Assembly (NCBI GenBank): GCA_012799135.1
Contig: JAAZLW010000228.1
Location: 1-33,851 of the forward strand
Length of the DNA: 33,851 bases
Reading direction: 5' to 3'
Source of the DNA: Bacillota bacterium
GTDB lineage: Bacteria; Bacillota; Limnochordia; DTU087
Made by a program: the position numbers and the translations under genes. The notes under the pieces are model-generated. The model had not been told where the DNA came from. It did no database searches and saw only the letters and a list, made by a program, of their open reading frames with translations. This document shows positions 1,739-8,487 of this stretch, in pieces (the first letter of the stretch is position 1; the number at the start of each line of letters is the position of its first letter).

Positions 1739-2611
1739 ATGCGTAGTCTATGGAATGGCAGTATCAGTTTTGGTTTGGTCAACATACCCGTGAAACTGTA
1801 TGCCGGTACATCCAGTAACGACATCAAGTTCAACTACCTCCACAGTGTCTGCCATACGCCCATCAAGTACCAAAAGACCTGCCCCACTTGCGCAAGAGAG
1901 GTTACCGAGGAGGAAATCGTCAAGGGCTATGAATTCGCGAAAGCTCAGTATGTAATCATGGATGAAGGCGATTTTGAAGCCACAGCACCAGACAAGACCC
2001 GCTCCATCGATATTCTTGACTTTGTTCAATTGGCACGAATCGATCCAGTCTATTTCCAGCGGACCTACTACCTGGAACCCGGGGAGACGGGACTCAAGGC
2101 CTATCATTTGCTAAAAAGAGCCATGCTGGAAAAGCAGCAGATCGCCATTGCCAAGATCGTGATTCGAGCCCGGGAAAATCTGGCTGCGCTGCGGGTTTAT
2201 GGCCCCGGATTAGCCCTAGAGACCATGTATTACCCCGGTGAGATCCGGGCTATTGAAGAGTTGGCACAGGTGATCACAGAACCTGAGATCAATGAGCGGG
2301 AATTGGAGATGGCCATGATGCTGATTGACAATCTGACCACAGAGTTTGTCCCGGAAAAATACCACAATGAGTATCAAAATATGCTGGCCAATATCATCGA
2401 GCAAAAGGTTGCCGGTCAAGAGGTCACTCCCGCTCCGCCGCTACCGGCCGCAGGCAAGGTCATCGACCTGATGGCGGCATTAGAAGCCAGCGTCCAGGCC
2501 ACAAAAGCCAAGGCAAAAGAAGTGGAAGAACTACCGATGGGTCAGGATGCGGCACGCCTTAAGGCCAGACGCAAGGGCCGGCAGAAACAGAAAACCGAGG
2601 AAACAGGCTAA
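1739..2611 (+). CDS. ku: DNA end-binding protein Ku (NHEJ)
   Basis: 290 residues, the normal size for bacterial Ku. It forms a homodimeric ring that binds double-strand break ends and recruits the ligase and polymerase. The start MRSLWNGSISFGLVNIPVKL is the family signature. Cysteines at 38, 48 and 51 (CHTPIKY, CPTC) and the EIVKGYE motif near 59-65 are typical, as is the Lys/Arg-rich tail after about residue 265. An AGAGAGGA ribosome-binding site precedes the ATG. The stop codon at 2609-2611 touches the GTG of the ligase gene, so the two are translationally coupled. In Bacillus subtilis the counterpart is expressed in the forespore under sigma-G, which fits the SASP genes downstream. Confidence 0.95.
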   Translation: MRSLWNGSISFGLVNIPVKLYAGTSSNDIKFNYLHSVCHTPIKYQKTCPTCAREVTEEEIVKGYEFAKAQYVIMDEGDFEATAPDKTRSIDILDFVQLARIDPVYFQRTYYLEPGETGLKAYHLLKRAMLEKQQIAIAKIVIRARENLAALRVYGPGLALETMYYPGEIRAIEELAQVITEPEINERELEMAMMLIDNLTTEFVPEKYHNEYQNMLANIIEQKVAGQEVTPAPPLPAAGKVIDLMAALEASVQATKAKAKEVEELPMGQDAARLKARRKGRQKQKTEETG

Positions 2612-3574
2612 GTGATGTTCAGTCTACCGTCACTCAGGCCAATGTTGGCCTCAACAGCCGATCCCTTTGATTCCGATATGTTCCTGTTTGAGCCCAAATG
2701 GGACGGATTTCGCTGTCTTGCCTATATGGGAAATAATGCTACCATCTTGCAGAGTCGCAATGGTGTGAATCTTACTCACCGATTCCCGGAGCTTTCTTTT
2801 CTACACCGGCAGGTTAAGGTCATTCCGGCGATTCTAGATGGAGAGATCATTGCTTTCCATCAAGGGCGGGAGGTTTTTCATCTACTTTTGCAGAGGATGC
2901 GGGAACGACCTAAGGCTAGCATCAGTCCTGGGGATGTACCGGCACTTTTCGTCGCCTTCGATATCCTGTACAGTGAGGGAGAATCCATCCTCCACCTCCC
3001 ATTGCAAGAGCGAAAAGAGCTGCTCAACCAAGGTGTCATGGCCAATGAATATCTAATAGTAAATAGCTATGTGTACCACTCGGGACAGGTGTTCTTTGAA
3101 GCAGCTGTAGCCCAAGGTAGAGAAGGTATCATGGCCAAGAGACTAGATAGTCCTTATCTGCCCGGCAAGCGCACCCGGTTATGGCTGAAGATCAAACCCT
3201 TGAGGACAACAGAAGCCTTGGTAATCGGCTTCATCCCTAAGGCCAACGACAGCTTTGCTTCTTTAGCCTTAGGGCAGTATTTGCGTAGCAGCCGCCAGCT
3301 GGTCTATGTAGGCAATGTGGGGACTGGGTTTACCGAAAACACGATGCGGGAGATTCGAGCCGATCTTAAACCACTACAACCCCAAGAGCAACCGAAAGTC
3401 CAACGACTCCCACATAGCCTACCTGGGCTGACTCTGGTCAGACCCGAAATGGTGGTAGAAATCAGTTATCTGGAGTACACTCCCGCGGGCAACCTTCGAC
3501 ATCCCACCTATCGGTACCGGCGGGACGATATTGAGCCCCACCAATGTGTTTTCCAGGGATTGGGTCAGATTTAG
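2612..3574 (+). CDS. ATP-dependent DNA ligase (LigD ligase module, stand-alone)
   Basis: 320 residues. It seals breaks held by Ku, using ATP and a covalent lysyl-AMP intermediate. The nucleotidyl-transferase motif I is KWDG with Lys29 as the adenylated residue. Motif III-like VAFDILY, motif IV EGIMAKR and motif V LWLKIKP follow, then the OB-fold domain to about residue 310. The start is GTG at 2612 or ATG at 2615; both directly follow the Ku stop codon. In many bacteria this module is one part of a multidomain LigD. Here it is a separate gene followed 12 nt later by the polymerase module, and no phosphoesterase domain is present. Confidence 0.93.
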   Translation: MMFSLPSLRPMLASTADPFDSDMFLFEPKWDGFRCLAYMGNNATILQSRNGVNLTHRFPELSFLHRQVKVIPAILDGEIIAFHQGREVFHLLLQRMRERPKASISPGDVPALFVAFDILYSEGESILHLPLQERKELLNQGVMANEYLIVNSYVYHSGQVFFEAAVAQGREGIMAKRLDSPYLPGKRTRLWLKIKPLRTTEALVIGFIPKANDSFASLALGQYLRSSRQLVYVGNVGTGFTENTMREIRADLKPLQPQEQPKVQRLPHSLPGLTLVRPEMVVEISYLEYTPAGNLRHPTYRYRRDDIEPHQCVFQGLGQI

Positions 3575-3586
3575 TGAGGAGAATTA

Positions 3587-4507
3587 GTGGTGGAACAGCA
3601 GCAAACGGTGTTCATTGACGGGCAAGAGCTATCGATCACCAATTGGGAAAAAGTCCTTTGGCCAGAGACAGGGTATACCAAAGGAGACTTGATCCGCTAC
3701 TATAGCCTGGCTGCACCTTATCTTCTGGCCCACCTACGAGACCGTCCACTTACTGTTACCCGCTACCCCCACGGCATTGGGGGGAAGTCCTTCTACCAGA
3801 AGAACTGCCCCCAATACGCCCCAGCCTTTGTCGAAACCGTTACTGTAAAGGGCGATCAACCCAACAAAACCATAAACTATATCTTGGCGCAAAATAGACC
3901 AACCCTGGTTTGGTTAGCTAATCAGGCGTGTATTGAGCTTCATCCTTGGTTATCTCTTCACAGTCGTTCCCAATACCCCGACTGGCTCGTGTTCGATTTG
4001 GATCCAGCGGAAGGTTGCGATTTTGACGATGCGAGAGAGATCGCCTTTCTTGTCAAGAAAGCCTTAGATGAACTGGGGTTATTATCCTATCCGAAGCTCT
4101 CGGGAGCCACCGGAATCCACATCTATGTTCCCATAAAACCCAAATACGCCTATCAAGTCACCAGTGGATTTGTGGGCAGTGTGGGAAGAATCCTGGAAGC
4201 AGTCTATCCGGCTAAAATCACGACAGAGAGGTTGGTCAAGAATCGTACCGGCCGAGTCTACATTGATCATCTGCAGAACCTTCTAGGCAAAACCCTCGCC
4301 GCTCCTTATAGCCCTCGCCCCCGTCCTCAAGCCCCTATCTCGACCCCGGTAACCTGGCAAGAACTGGGGAGAGTCTATCCTCACCAGTTTCATCTAGGCA
4401 ATATCTTGGAGCGATTACAGAATACACCTGATCTTTTTGCTCCGGTTCTAGGGCCGGGCCAATCGCTGGATAAGGCTCTATTGGACATCGGGGTCACGGT
4501 GACTTGA
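3587..4507 (+). CDS. LigD-type primase-polymerase (NHEJ polymerase, stand-alone)
   Basis: 306 residues of the archaeo-eukaryotic primase superfamily (LigD PolDom). It fills or extends broken ends, preferring ribonucleotides. The metal-binding motif FDLDP supplies Asp137 and Asp139, the SGATGIHIYVP motif carries His178, and YIDHLQN carries the third acidic residue Asp227. The N-terminal GKSFYQKN stretch near 66-73 is also typical of the family. GTG at 3587 is preceded by GAGGAG. It is the third gene of the Ku operon. A GGGGTCA/TGACCCC hairpin at 4490-4511 spans the stop codon, but no T-run follows, so termination there is uncertain. Confidence 0.94.
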   Translation: MVEQQQTVFIDGQELSITNWEKVLWPETGYTKGDLIRYYSLAAPYLLAHLRDRPLTVTRYPHGIGGKSFYQKNCPQYAPAFVETVTVKGDQPNKTINYILAQNRPTLVWLANQACIELHPWLSLHSRSQYPDWLVFDLDPAEGCDFDDAREIAFLVKKALDELGLLSYPKLSGATGIHIYVPIKPKYAYQVTSGFVGSVGRILEAVYPAKITTERLVKNRTGRVYIDHLQNLLGKTLAAPYSPRPRPQAPISTPVTWQELGRVYPHQFHLGNILERLQNTPDLFAPVLGPGQSLDKALLDIGVTVT

Positions 4508-4537
4508 CCCCGGTTCAATTACTAGCCGAAACTGACA

Positions 4538-4567
4538 GCATGACCTTGCCCTGATAGAGCCATACTA
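4538..4567 (+). promoter_or_regulatory. Sigma-G promoter of the first SASP gene
   Basis: GCATG (4538-4542), an 18-nt spacer and CATACTA (4561-4567) match the published forespore sigma-G pattern (gHATR, 17-18 nt, CATnhTA) without a mismatch. The predicted transcription start falls near 4573, giving a very short leader that begins at or inside the Shine-Dalgarno sequence. Confidence 0.72.
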
Positions 4568-4585
4568 ACATTGGAGGTGACGTAT

Positions 4586-4783
4586 GTGGCTAATCGGAGC
4601 AGACTGGCCTCCGAACGGCTGAAAATGGAGGCAGCAGAGGAAATTGGGTTCGCCGATAAGGTAAGAGAGAGCGGCTGGGAAAACGCTACAACTAAAGAGA
4701 TCGGGCTGATGGTCCGAGAAATGATCCGGCGCGGAGAAAACGCCCTTCTCCAGAAAAAGCAACCGGATCAAGATCAAACTTAG
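4586..4783 (+). CDS. Alpha/beta-type small acid-soluble spore protein (SspF-like)
   Basis: 65 residues. SASPs coat forespore DNA, shift it towards the A form and protect it during dormancy. The pattern LKMEAAEEIGFADKV, then GW, then a second helix with GLMVREMI, follows the SspF layout. The start is GTG at 4586, 8 nt after GGAGG (4573-4577). A TTG at 4571 would lie in front of that site, and ATG at 4584 is out of frame. A consensus sigma-G promoter lies directly upstream. The sequence is more divergent than the second SASP (Ile and Leu-Met where its neighbour has Ala-Gly-Arg), so the two may differ in DNA affinity. Confidence 0.82.
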   Translation: MANRSRLASERLKMEAAEEIGFADKVRESGWENATTKEIGLMVREMIRRGENALLQKKQPDQDQT

Positions 4784-4803
4784 TCACTCTGCCGCCAATC
4801 CAG

Positions 4804-4833
4804 GCATAAACCTCCCCGGTCCGTGGCATCCTA
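4804..4833 (+). promoter_or_regulatory. Sigma-G promoter of the second SASP gene
   Basis: GCATA (4804-4808), an 18-nt spacer and CATCCTA (4827-4833) again fit the sigma-G pattern with the same spacing as the site at 4538. The expected start near 4840 gives a leader of about 65 nt that contains the hairpin at 4867-4890. Confidence 0.7.
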
Positions 4834-4866
4834 GAAGCAAACCTCGCAACTTGTCTCTTTTTCCTA

Positions 4867-4890
4867 CATATCCCCTTTTCGGGGGATATG
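4867..4890 (+). promoter_or_regulatory. Perfect hairpin abutting the SASP ribosome-binding site
   Basis: CATATCCCC (4867-4875) pairs perfectly with GGGGATATG (4882-4890) around a 6-nt loop. The next base starts the AAAGGAGG Shine-Dalgarno sequence (4891-4898). It may stabilise the mRNA or tune ribosome access; no T-run follows, so it is not a terminator. Confidence 0.65.
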
Positions 4891-4904
4891 AAAGGAGGTC
4901 ATCC

Positions 4905-5132
4905 ATGGCGAAACGCTCCCGAGAAACAGTTGTCCCTCGGGCAGAATCAGCTCTGGATGAGTTCAAGTACGAGGTCGCTAACGAACTGGGTCTCCTGGAG
5001 AAGATCAAATCCCAAGGTTGGGGTGAAATGACTACCCGGGAAGCCGGTCGAGTAGGCGGCCAAATGGTCCGTAGGCTAATCCAAGCCGCTGAGGAATCCC
5101 TTGCAGACGAAAACAAGGCAGACCGAAGCTAG
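4905..5132 (+). CDS. Alpha/beta-type small acid-soluble spore protein (SspF-like)
   Basis: 75 residues. The core DEFKYEVANELG, then QGWGEMTTREAGRVGG, then MVRRLIQAAEESL follows B. subtilis SspF closely, including the KYE-V/I-A segment where the germination protease Gpr cuts classical SASPs. ATG at 4905 sits 6 nt after AAAGGAGG; an upstream in-frame ATG at 4851 has no such site. It lies 121 nt behind the first SASP gene with its own sigma-G promoter. Together with Ku, ligase and polymerase it makes a block devoted to spore DNA. Confidence 0.9.
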   Translation: MAKRSRETVVPRAESALDEFKYEVANELGLLEKIKSQGWGEMTTREAGRVGGQMVRRLIQAAEESLADENKADRS

Positions 5133-5206: not shown

Positions 5207-5232
5207 GGGCAGGAAAAGGGAGTTTCCTGCCC
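5207..5232. terminator. Hairpin between convergent SASP and kinase genes
   Basis: GGGCAGGAAA (5207-5216) pairs with TTTCCTGCCC (5223-5232) around a 6-nt loop. The plus-strand tail is ATTCTCTCT, only moderately T-rich. It sits between genes that converge, so it may serve both. Confidence 0.55.
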
Positions 5233-5239
5233 ATTCTCT

Positions 5240-7015
5240 CTAGGCTTCTGCCTTGGGTAGGACAAAACCAAAGGTCGCTCCTTCACCGAGTTTACTGGTA
5301 GCAAACACTTCCCCTCCATGGTTTTCGATAATACCCCGGGCAATCGAAAGCCCTAACCCCGTTCCTTCTTTACTTTTCTCCCGTGCCTTATCCACTTTAT
5401 AGAAGCGATCCCATACATAGGGGAGCTGTTCTGGGTTAATGCCCCTACCCGTGTCCATGACTCTCACCATCACTCGGTTCTCAGTTGAACCAGTGGATAT
5501 AGTTACAACACCACCTGGGTCTGTATGGCGCAGGGCATTGTCGATGAAATTAGTCAGAACCTGTTGCAGCCGATCACTATCGCCCCACACCAAGAGTTCA
5601 CTTTCCTTGCCTGCAGACAGCTCACACCTCAGCTCCAAATTCTTTCGCTGGGCTTGGGGTTCGAAAATATTCTTGACTCTGTGGACCAAATCCCGGATAT
5701 CCAAAAGGTCAAAAGTAATAGACATGCTTCCAGACTCTAGTTTGGCCAGATCCAAAATGTCATCGATCAGGCGATTAAGTCGCAACGCTTCTTCCCGAAC
5801 AATCCCCAGATAGCGATTCCTGGTTTGATCATCCTGCACAGTTCCATCGAGTAAAGGCTCCACAAAACCCCGAATTGAAGTAAGTGGTGTGCGAAGCTCA
5901 TGGGTAACATTGGCCAGAAAGTCCCGACGCATATTCTCCAGGCGCCTTGCTTCGCTTACATCCTGTAGGAGAATCACGCTACCTACCCGTTCATTGCCCC
6001 GGCGAATTGGACTAGCATACGCCCTTAGTACCACCAGGGGATATGGTGATACATCAAGGGCTTCCACCTGTCCCGTGGCACTGACCCGATGGAGCAGATC
6101 AAGCAATGGTACAGGCAAATCGTTCATCTTCAGCTTGTCCAAAGGAATATGACCTGCCCGCAGGAGCTGCCCGGCCTGGGAGTTGATCCACAGGAGATTG
6201 TTGTCATTATCGGCAGCGATCACTCCTTCATCGATGCCCGTAACGATACTTTGAAACTTATCCCTCTCTTCCTGCAAGTCACCGAGGCTCTTTTCCAGCT
6301 TCTCTGCCAGTAGGTTGATCGCTTGGCCCAGTTCACCTACCTCATCTTTGGTCTCGATGGGTACCCGCTGATCGAATATTCCTCGAGTCATCTCTTGGGC
6401 TAGACTAGTCATAGCTCTTAAGGGCCCAGTGATATTCCGAGACAGCCCAACACCCACCAAATTGGATGCAAGCAGAGCAAACGCTGATGCTGCCAGAACC
6501 AATCGGCGGACATGGGCGAGGGTTTGCTCCACCGCCGATACCGGTGAATTCATGAACAAAGCACCCAGAACCTGGTTGCCCACCGTCACCGGTACTGCTA
6601 CAGTGATCATGGGCATATTAAACCGCCCTGTTCGCCCTCTGCGAGTTACTATGGTCCCTTTCATAACATCATTGAACTCATCCGCATCCAGCTGAATACC
6701 TTCCCACTCCACCGATCCCTTTGATGCTGCCACGATTAGACCAGAACGGTCAACCACCCAAACTTGTGCTCCTAAGAACTCCCCCATGTTCTCCAACACA
6801 AACCTGGCCTGGTAGCTCAAAGCTCGCCCTTGTGCTACATCCTTAACGACCTTGGCCACAGCTTGTCCCCGTGTGATCAGTACTCGTTCCTGCTCTGTAA
6901 ACAGATAATCCGACAACAGACGGGAAAATAACACACCCAACACTGCCAGGCTCAGCACTGTGACGGCAACATAGGAGACAACCAGCTTCGTTCTAATGCT
7001 GCGTCTTGCTAACAC
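5240..7015 (-). CDS. PhoR/WalK-type sensor histidine kinase
   Basis: 591 residues from GTG 7015, which follows AGGAGG by 9 nt and overlaps the end of the response-regulator gene by 23 nt. Domains in order: TM1 about 10-31, extracytoplasmic sensor about 32-170, TM2 about 171-192, HAMP about 192-244, PAS about 250-355, HisKA with phospho-acceptor His372 in NVTHELRTPLTS, and HATPase with N-box DNALRHT, G1 DTGRGI, F-box and G2 GTGLGL. It autophosphorylates and passes the phosphate to the adjacent regulator. The signal is not evident from sequence. The layout is that of PhoR, ResE and WalK; no phosphate, redox or cell-wall genes lie beside it to decide. Confidence 0.92.
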   Translation of the reverse strand: MLARRSIRTKLVVSYVAVTVLSLAVLGVLFSRLLSDYLFTEQERVLITRGQAVAKVVKDVAQGRALSYQARFVLENMGEFLGAQVWVVDRSGLIVAASKGSVEWEGIQLDADEFNDVMKGTIVTRRGRTGRFNMPMITVAVPVTVGNQVLGALFMNSPVSAVEQTLAHVRRLVLAASAFALLASNLVGVGLSRNITGPLRAMTSLAQEMTRGIFDQRVPIETKDEVGELGQAINLLAEKLEKSLGDLQEERDKFQSIVTGIDEGVIAADNDNNLLWINSQAGQLLRAGHIPLDKLKMNDLPVPLLDLLHRVSATGQVEALDVSPYPLVVLRAYASPIRRGNERVGSVILLQDVSEARRLENMRRDFLANVTHELRTPLTSIRGFVEPLLDGTVQDDQTRNRYLGIVREEALRLNRLIDDILDLAKLESGSMSITFDLLDIRDLVHRVKNIFEPQAQRKNLELRCELSAGKESELLVWGDSDRLQQVLTNFIDNALRHTDPGGVVTISTGSTENRVMVRVMDTGRGINPEQLPYVWDRFYKVDKAREKSKEGTGLGLSIARGIIENHGGEVFATSKLGEGATFGFVLPKAEA

Positions 7016-7715
7016 CGCCTTCGGCCTCCTGCTGCTCTTCAAATTTGTAACCAACACCCCAGACAGTGGCGATACTCCACGGCTTGGGCTCTGCCGATAC
7101 CAGTTTCTGTCGTAAACGTTTAATATGAGCATCTACTGTTCGCCCATCACCGACGAAGTCATAGCCCCAAACCTGTGACAGGATCTGCTCTCTTGTATAG
7201 GTCCATCCTGGTCTTTCAGCCAGAAAAACCAGAAGGTCGAATTCCTTTGGGGTAAGAGATGCCGGCTGATCATCGACCAGCACCTCATGGCGAGCCACAT
7301 CAATGTGTAAACCCGGAAACTCCAGGATCTTGGCCCCTTCTTTTTCTCGGTTTACCCGGCGCAAGATCGCCTTTACCCGAGCCACCACTTCTACAGGGTT
7401 AAAGGGTTTCACGACATAATCATCAGCACCTAACTCCAGACCTAGGATCCGATCATAGTCCTCTCCCTTAGCTGTCAGCATGATGATGGGGACGAAACTC
7501 TCCTGCCTAACTGCCCGGCAGACCTCCCACCCATCAAGTCTAGGCATCATCACATCAAGAATCAACAAGTCTGGTTTGCTCTCCCTGGTCTGTCTTAGTG
7601 CCTCAGAGCCGTCTCGGACCGTCACCACCTGATACCCGTCCTTGGTCAAGTACAAAGTTAATAGTTCCAGTACATTGGGATCATCATCAGCGATCAGGAC
7701 CTTCCCTTTCGCCAC
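6993..7715 (-). CDS. OmpR/PhoB-family response regulator
   Basis: 240 residues. The receiver domain (about 5-115) has the acidic pair Asp10-Asp11, phospho-acceptor Asp54 in LILDVMMP, Thr81 and Lys103 in VVKPF. A C-terminal winged helix (about 130-230) carries TPKEFDLLVFLA, VWGYDF and GRTVDAHIKRLRQKL. GTG at 7715 follows AAGGGGAG. It is the first gene of a two-gene operon with the histidine kinase and is separated from spoVT upstream by a terminator. Confidence 0.94.
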   Translation of the reverse strand: MAKGKVLIADDDPNVLELLTLYLTKDGYQVVTVRDGSEALRQTRESKPDLLILDVMMPRLDGWEVCRAVRQESFVPIIMLTAKGEDYDRILGLELGADDYVVKPFNPVEVVARVKAILRRVNREKEGAKILEFPGLHIDVARHEVLVDDQPASLTPKEFDLLVFLAERPGWTYTREQILSQVWGYDFVGDGRTVDAHIKRLRQKLVSAEPKPWSIATVWGVGYKFEEQQEAEGGVSKTQH

Positions 7716-7839: not shown

Positions 7840-8388
7840 CTAATCGATACCTACTTGTTTGCTGAGAAAACTGGCAGCAGTCTCAGCGACTTTACGTTCA
7901 AACTCACCGAGCTCACGGTCGGTAGCCGCTAGAAGCACTGTCCCTAACAGATCGCCAGTAGGGCTAATGATAGGGGCAACCACCAAAGACCGTAATTCAT
8001 AGTCCTTGGGCCATTCCAGATAAGACTCTTTCTGCAAATGCTCAGCCTGGGCAATAATGGACTTACGTTCAATGGCAACCTTCTTGAGGGCATTGCTGAC
8101 CATACGTTCCTGCATACTTTTGACAGCTTCGCTACTGGCAATCACCTGGTCTTTGTCCGTGATCAGTGCCTGGCAATCAGTCGACTCTTCTAACGCTTCG
8201 ACATATCCTTCAGCTTCTGTCCGCAGGCCCCAAAGGGGAGAAAATTTCTTTAAGACAATCTCGCCATTGGCCTCTGTGAAAATCTCAATAGCGTCCCCTT
8301 CATCGATCCTAAGCTGCTTCCTCAGTTCCTTTGGTACCACGACCCGCCCAAGTTCATCTATTCTACGCACGATGCCTGTTGCTTTCAT
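7840..8388 (-). CDS. spoVT: Stage V sporulation transcription factor SpoVT
   Basis: 182 residues, close to the 178 of B. subtilis SpoVT. Residues 1-50 form the AbrB-type swapped-hairpin DNA-binding domain (ATGIVRRIDELGRVVVPKEL). Residues about 55-182 form the GAF-like domain (VVAPIISPTGDLLGTV). SpoVT adjusts sigma-G-dependent genes in the forespore, in B. subtilis including SASP genes and the Ku operon, so its presence here fits the block at 1739-5132. ATG at 8388 is preceded by AGGAGG at 8 nt. I could not find a convincing sigma-G promoter before it. Confidence 0.93.
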   Translation of the reverse strand: MKATGIVRRIDELGRVVVPKELRKQLRIDEGDAIEIFTEANGEIVLKKFSPLWGLRTEAEGYVEALEESTDCQALITDKDQVIASSEAVKSMQERMVSNALKKVAIERKSIIAQAEHLQKESYLEWPKDYELRSLVVAPIISPTGDLLGTVLLAATDRELGEFERKVAETAASFLSKQVGID

Positions 8389-8487
8389 CGATCCGACCTC
8401 CTCGCTAATATTCTGACCAGCCAAACCAAATTCATACTACAGATGACGGTCAAGCGGGAGGCGAACTAAATCTCACAAGACTATCCC

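Follow-up and report, generated by a model that had tools for sequence, protein, structure and literature searches.

Conserved linkage of NHEJ and SASP genes at a locus with forespore-type promoter motifs in Limnochordia

Gene content of the ku-SASP block

The stretch of DNA under study, referred to here as the window, comprises 33,851 nucleotides of contig JAAZLW010000228.1 (assembly GCA_012799135.1) from an uncultured, spore-forming member of the Bacillota in the class Limnochordia. Five same-strand genes at positions 1739–5132 encode Ku, a ligase of the NHEJ type, a polymerase of the LigD type and two SASPs of the alpha/beta type, and both the coordinates and the family assignments given to this block in an initial annotation were borne out by model searches. 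The Ku protein (1739–2611, + strand) scored 305.7 bits with the TIGR02772 equivalog model, for which the cut-off is 150, with coverage of model positions 1–259 of 259, and 180.2 bits with PF02735. The adjoining gene (2612–3574, +) encodes a stand-alone NHEJ ATP-dependent DNA ligase which scored 233.2 bits with TIGR02779 (cut-off 227.75), aligns with the LigD ligase domain 1vs0 and has an intact KxDG motif in the form KWDG. The third gene (3587–4507, +) specifies a stand-alone LigD-type primase-polymerase (PF21686, 296.6 bits) that aligns with the NHEJ polymerase 5dmu and in which the DxD (DLDP) and SGxxGxH (SGATGIH) motifs are intact. The ligase and polymerase are separate open reading frames that each match their own LigD domain, and do not constitute one LigD polypeptide.

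The SASP genes are located at 4586–4783 (+; SASP1, 65 aa) and 4905–5132 (+; SASP2, 75 aa). Their starts were revised to GTG at 4586 and ATG at 4905, respectively, each preceded by a strong ribosome-binding site. The gaps between successive genes in the block are 0 nt (ku-ligase), 12 nt (ligase-polymerase), 78 nt (polymerase-SASP1) and 121 nt (SASP1-SASP2), and the earlier placement of the SASP genes within 80 nt holds for the first and not for the second. Both proteins exceeded the PF00269 gathering score of 22 bits, SASP1 with 27.2 bits and SASP2 with 83.5 bits. SASP2 matches SspC (2z3x, E=3e-6) and shares with it the GG motif of the second half of the protein. This motif is absent from SASP1 and its orthologues: SASP1 belongs to a minor alpha/beta subtype that possesses E[IV]GL[MV]V in place of VGG, and no solved relative of it was identified by sequence. 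The two proteins resemble the alpha/beta SASPs SspC and SspF/Ssp4 in their match to PF00269, in the alignment of SASP2 with SspC and in the sigma-G-type promoters described below. Multiple copies per genome also are usual for this group (PMC3533761), as is the case here. SASP1 departs from these proteins in lacking VGG and in its linkage to NHEJ genes.

A terminator-like hairpin is situated at the end of the block (5207–5232, +), as judged by a scan in which such matches were no commoner than in shuffled sequences. The ku-SASP block gave no structured-RNA match in Rfam. Elsewhere, a c-di-AMP riboswitch (ydaO/yuaA leader, RF00379, 89.4 bits) is present at the left window end (59–181, −) with its downstream gene beyond the window, and seven tRNA genes (Val, Leu, Cys, Gly, Phe, Asp, Val) are clustered at 428–1004 (−) just past a greA-like gene.

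Promoter-like motifs and the greA-ku intergenic region

The sequence GCATG-N18-CATACTA (4538–4567, +), which ends 18 nt before SASP1, is an exact match to the sigma-G consensus GHATR-N18-CATWHTA and is the predicted promoter of this gene. A candidate promoter for SASP2, GCATA-N18-CATCCTA (4804–4833, +), shows one mismatch to the same consensus. Sigma-G-like sites are positioned 17–19 nt ahead of SASP1 in loci from both f1, the window genome's own family, and f12, another of the 16 families (coded f1–f16) into which the 73 genomes of the class are divided. Matches to the sigma-G consensus across the whole window were no more frequent than expected by chance, and the variant GYATR-N18-CAWACTA occurred seven times genome-wide, including at SASP1 and at both main SASP genes on contig C53, compared with five occurrences of the reversed control. 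With counts this close to chance and control levels, the motif by itself has little specificity, and the case rests instead on where the sites lie and on their conservation. One more exact sigma-G-like match is present in the window genome at C53:40976–41005. A scan of the region for sigma-70 promoters yielded nothing above chance.

The candidate ku promoter, GGATA-N18-TATCCTA (1676–1705, +), is conserved at 11 of 11 f1 loci, in which GGATA-N18-[TAC]AT[CG]CTA is located 27–34 nt ahead of the ku start while the spacer sequence diverges. The relaxed motif GG[ATG]TA-N18-nAnnnTA was found at 31 of 63 ku genes of the clade compared with 0.2 in dinucleotide shuffles, a contrast that has to be read with the pattern having been written after the data were seen and the relatives being non-independent. 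It is common to five families (f1, f8, f9, f40 and f104). The ku motif departs from GHATR-N18-CATWHTA in possessing G at the second position of the −35 element, unlike the −35 sequences of B. subtilis sigma-G promoters and of the SASP promoters, and scored modestly with a SASP-derived matrix (p about 0.02–0.04 per locus). The G at this position may denote a forespore promoter that is weaker or differently timed at ku. The GGATA...TATCC arrangement also was considered as a palindromic operator, and this was rejected: the second half varies in relatives (AATCC, CATCC, TATGC) and the trailing TA is kept, so that a −10 element fits the site better.

The gap between ku and the divergent greA-like gene contains a near-invariant block, CTTGCTGGAGAAACCTTCCA (1643–1662), which emerged from the alignment of the 11 f1 loci and includes the imperfect inverted repeat TGGAG-N5-TTCCA. 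The block is a possible operator. It is specific to f1 and is the sole match in the window genome at ≤2 mismatches, and these two properties discount a regulon-wide operator and leave at most a local site. The greA-like gene itself (1099–1632, −; PF01272/PF03449; NF001263, 155.8 bits) more likely starts at an ATG near 1584, and a divergent copy lies beside ku in f1, f12, f14, f40, f72, f96 and f104.

The SpoVT paralogue and conservation of the NHEJ-SASP linkage

The gene at 7840–8424 (−), 2.7 kb past SASP2, encodes a protein with an AbrB-type N-terminal domain and a SpoVT_C/GAF domain (PF15714, 94.1 bits), and its start is likely at 8388. The initial annotation identified it as a spoVT regulator 3 kb away. 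This identity was ruled out by the TIGR02851 equivalog model, with which the protein scored 174 bits against a cut-off of 235.9, and by a tree in which the main SpoVT copies formed one group apart from all other copies. A SpoVT that clears the cut-off (272.3 bits) is encoded elsewhere in the window genome, on contig C53 between the two main SASP genes. Thus, although it shares the domain organization of SpoVT, the 7840–8424 product, designated SpoVT2, falls outside the main SpoVT clade and is, on score and phylogeny, an ancient paralogue that coexists with the true protein. The two main SASP genes and the true spoVT are grouped within about 20 kb on C53:15904–41005 (G000; L104, L105, L295).

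Among 25 genomes that were checked, the second SpoVT often resides at the NHEJ locus, as in f1, f2, f12, f40, f119 and f72. It is about 12 kb from the locus in f13, lies 10 bp after the polymerase gene in f96, and is co-directional and situated among the SASP genes in f40 and f119. Families f3, f5, f6 and f15 carry their second copy away from the NHEJ locus. Genes for a WalK/PnpS-like sensor kinase and a response regulator (5240–7715, −) intervene between SASP2 and the paralogue in most f1 genomes. They are missing from this spot in genome G014, where the paralogue is 743 bp from the polymerase gene. The same genome carries two different ku-ligase loci (L098, L103), reflecting either duplication or assembly contamination.

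Ku is present in 60 and the polymerase in 62 of the 73 genomes of the class, and the NHEJ loci were searched using models derived from the proteins of the window. SASP1 is directly 3′ of the polymerase gene on the same strand in 11/11 f1 genomes with sequence past the polymerase; SASP2 is intact in five of these and is represented by a weak, remnant-like match in two. Both SASP genes are on the same strand ~850 bp downstream of the polymerase gene in f12 (3/3), and same-strand downstream SASPs also are present in f6 (1/1) and f13 (1/3). None were found at the NHEJ loci of f2, f3, f4, f5, f8, f9, f14, f15 and f16. When 300 genomes of the phylum were searched with SASP1, the best matches outside the class, in f40, f104 and f119, were located directly after ku, ligase and polymerase genes. 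An unbiased polymerase-based survey of 108 NHEJ loci beyond the class detected same-strand downstream SASPs in f40 (3/3), f104, f119, f72 and f121, a SASP just upstream of the polymerase gene in f53, and an opposite-strand SASP at two further loci. Adjacency thereby extends from the 11 f1 genomes to eight other families, in answer to the comparison of gene order in relatives that had been proposed with the initial annotation. In most families of the phylum, NHEJ genes occur with no SASP gene linked to them, and the linkage therefore is not needed for function. Gene order varies at other loci: the f104 locus (L255, G239) lacks a ligase gene between ku and the polymerase gene, which adjoin one another and precede four consecutive SASP genes, and in f49, f52, f83 and f106 the NHEJ ligase gene between ku and the polymerase gene is on the opposite strand (L149, L150, L153, L155, L158, L160, L165, L167, L168).

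In a polymerase tree from which fused LigD proteins were left out, 20 of the 21 linked loci fell in one clade (98*) of 65 rows, and the linkage label changed six times compared with 20 in shuffles. Linked SASP1 orthologues from f1, f12, f40, f104 and f119 cluster in the SASP tree with only four unlinked proteins among them, as do the linked SASP2 proteins of the same families, in each case with modest support, the proteins being short. This grouping of both SASP1 and SASP2 with linked counterparts from other families suggests, with moderate support, a cluster that was ancestral and was subsequently lost in some lineages; this is the simplest interpretation, although several gains also are possible. 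The strong clustering of the linkage on the polymerase tree and its lack in many relatives would suit an old neighborhood that is kept merely by descent, with NHEJ genes that are used mainly outside sporulation. However, the linkage is maintained across strongly diverged families as neighboring genes change, the forespore-type ku motif is retained in f1, f8, f9, f40 and f104, and a SpoVT paralogue travels with the locus. Neutral synteny of this kind is considered improbable.

A predicted forespore programme and its significance

The gene content, with its intact motifs, and the conserved associations and promoter-like motifs are explained most credibly by a forespore 'genome-guarding' cluster of sigma-G regulon type, in which ku and the ligase and polymerase genes form one operon and the two SASP genes each have their own promoter, an interpretation that is held with reasonable confidence. 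Forespore RNA polymerase would switch on the operon and both SASP genes, with SASP2, and probably SASP1, serving as a DNA coat during dormancy. The three NHEJ proteins presumably would be packaged into the spore and would rejoin breaks at germination, when the chromosome is in single copy. The linked SpoVT paralogue may tune expression of the gene set.

Transcription of all five genes from the ku promoter as one polycistronic operon would instead make SASP levels dependent on that promoter. The genes are on the same strand with short gaps, and the terminator scan found no terminator-like site between the polymerase gene and SASP2, with one present after SASP2; hence, read-through is possible. 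Nevertheless, SASP1 has its own exact and positionally conserved sigma-G-type promoter and SASP2 a near-exact one, these promoters persist while gap lengths vary, and the f12 SASP1 retains its promoter despite a gap of about 850 bp from the polymerase gene. A single operon is unlikely on these grounds. With a sigma-G-type promoter ahead of each SASP gene, the block has no need of a single transcription unit, and the promoter predictions support a shared forespore regulon instead. The 'one forespore programme' proposed initially survives in this sense, with conserved adjacency and promoters of forespore type ahead of ku and both SASP genes, and not as a single transcript. Chance or an assembly artefact, which might be suspected from the 362 contigs and 6.7% estimated contamination of the window genome assembly, can be dismissed almost entirely as the same order recurs in 11 separately assembled f1 genomes and in several other families, far above the per-locus chance of ~8e-4 that was estimated here for a same-strand SASP ≤1 kb downstream of a given gene (with ~4 SASPs per 2.4 Mb genome).

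More speculatively, the NHEJ-linked SASP1 might be a dedicated partner of Ku, ligase and polymerase on coated spore DNA and not part of the general coat, and the linked SpoVT paralogue, along with the divergent greA-like gene, might act as a local switch for the repair module; this combined proposal is viewed as a long shot. Literature searches, with most subscription journals outside their coverage, did not find a published description of NHEJ-SASP gene linkage, of an NHEJ-linked SpoVT paralogue or of the GG-less SASP1 subtype.

The principle of forespore-controlled NHEJ is already known, as are all parts of the cluster: the B. subtilis ykoV-ykoU (ku-ligD) genes are under sigma-G and SpoVT control and are expressed in the forespore (PMC3656841), one test found spores without ligD and ku to be ~30-fold more sensitive, and SASPs were key protectants (PMC6399134). 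The locus described here resembles ykoV-ykoU, which has a role in spore DNA repair (PMC3656841, PMC6399134), in combining Ku with LigD-type ligase and polymerase activities behind a predicted forespore-type promoter. It differs in dividing ligase and polymerase between two genes and in having two same-strand SASP genes downstream and a SpoVT paralogue nearby. SpoVT-type regulators have no known consensus binding site (PMC5061766), and the conserved near-palindromic greA-ku block near the linked paralogue offers a handle on this class of protein. Overall, the locus couples protection of spore DNA to its repair at the level of genome organization in a lineage distant from Bacillus, and it suggests that NHEJ timed to the forespore predates the example known from B. 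subtilis.
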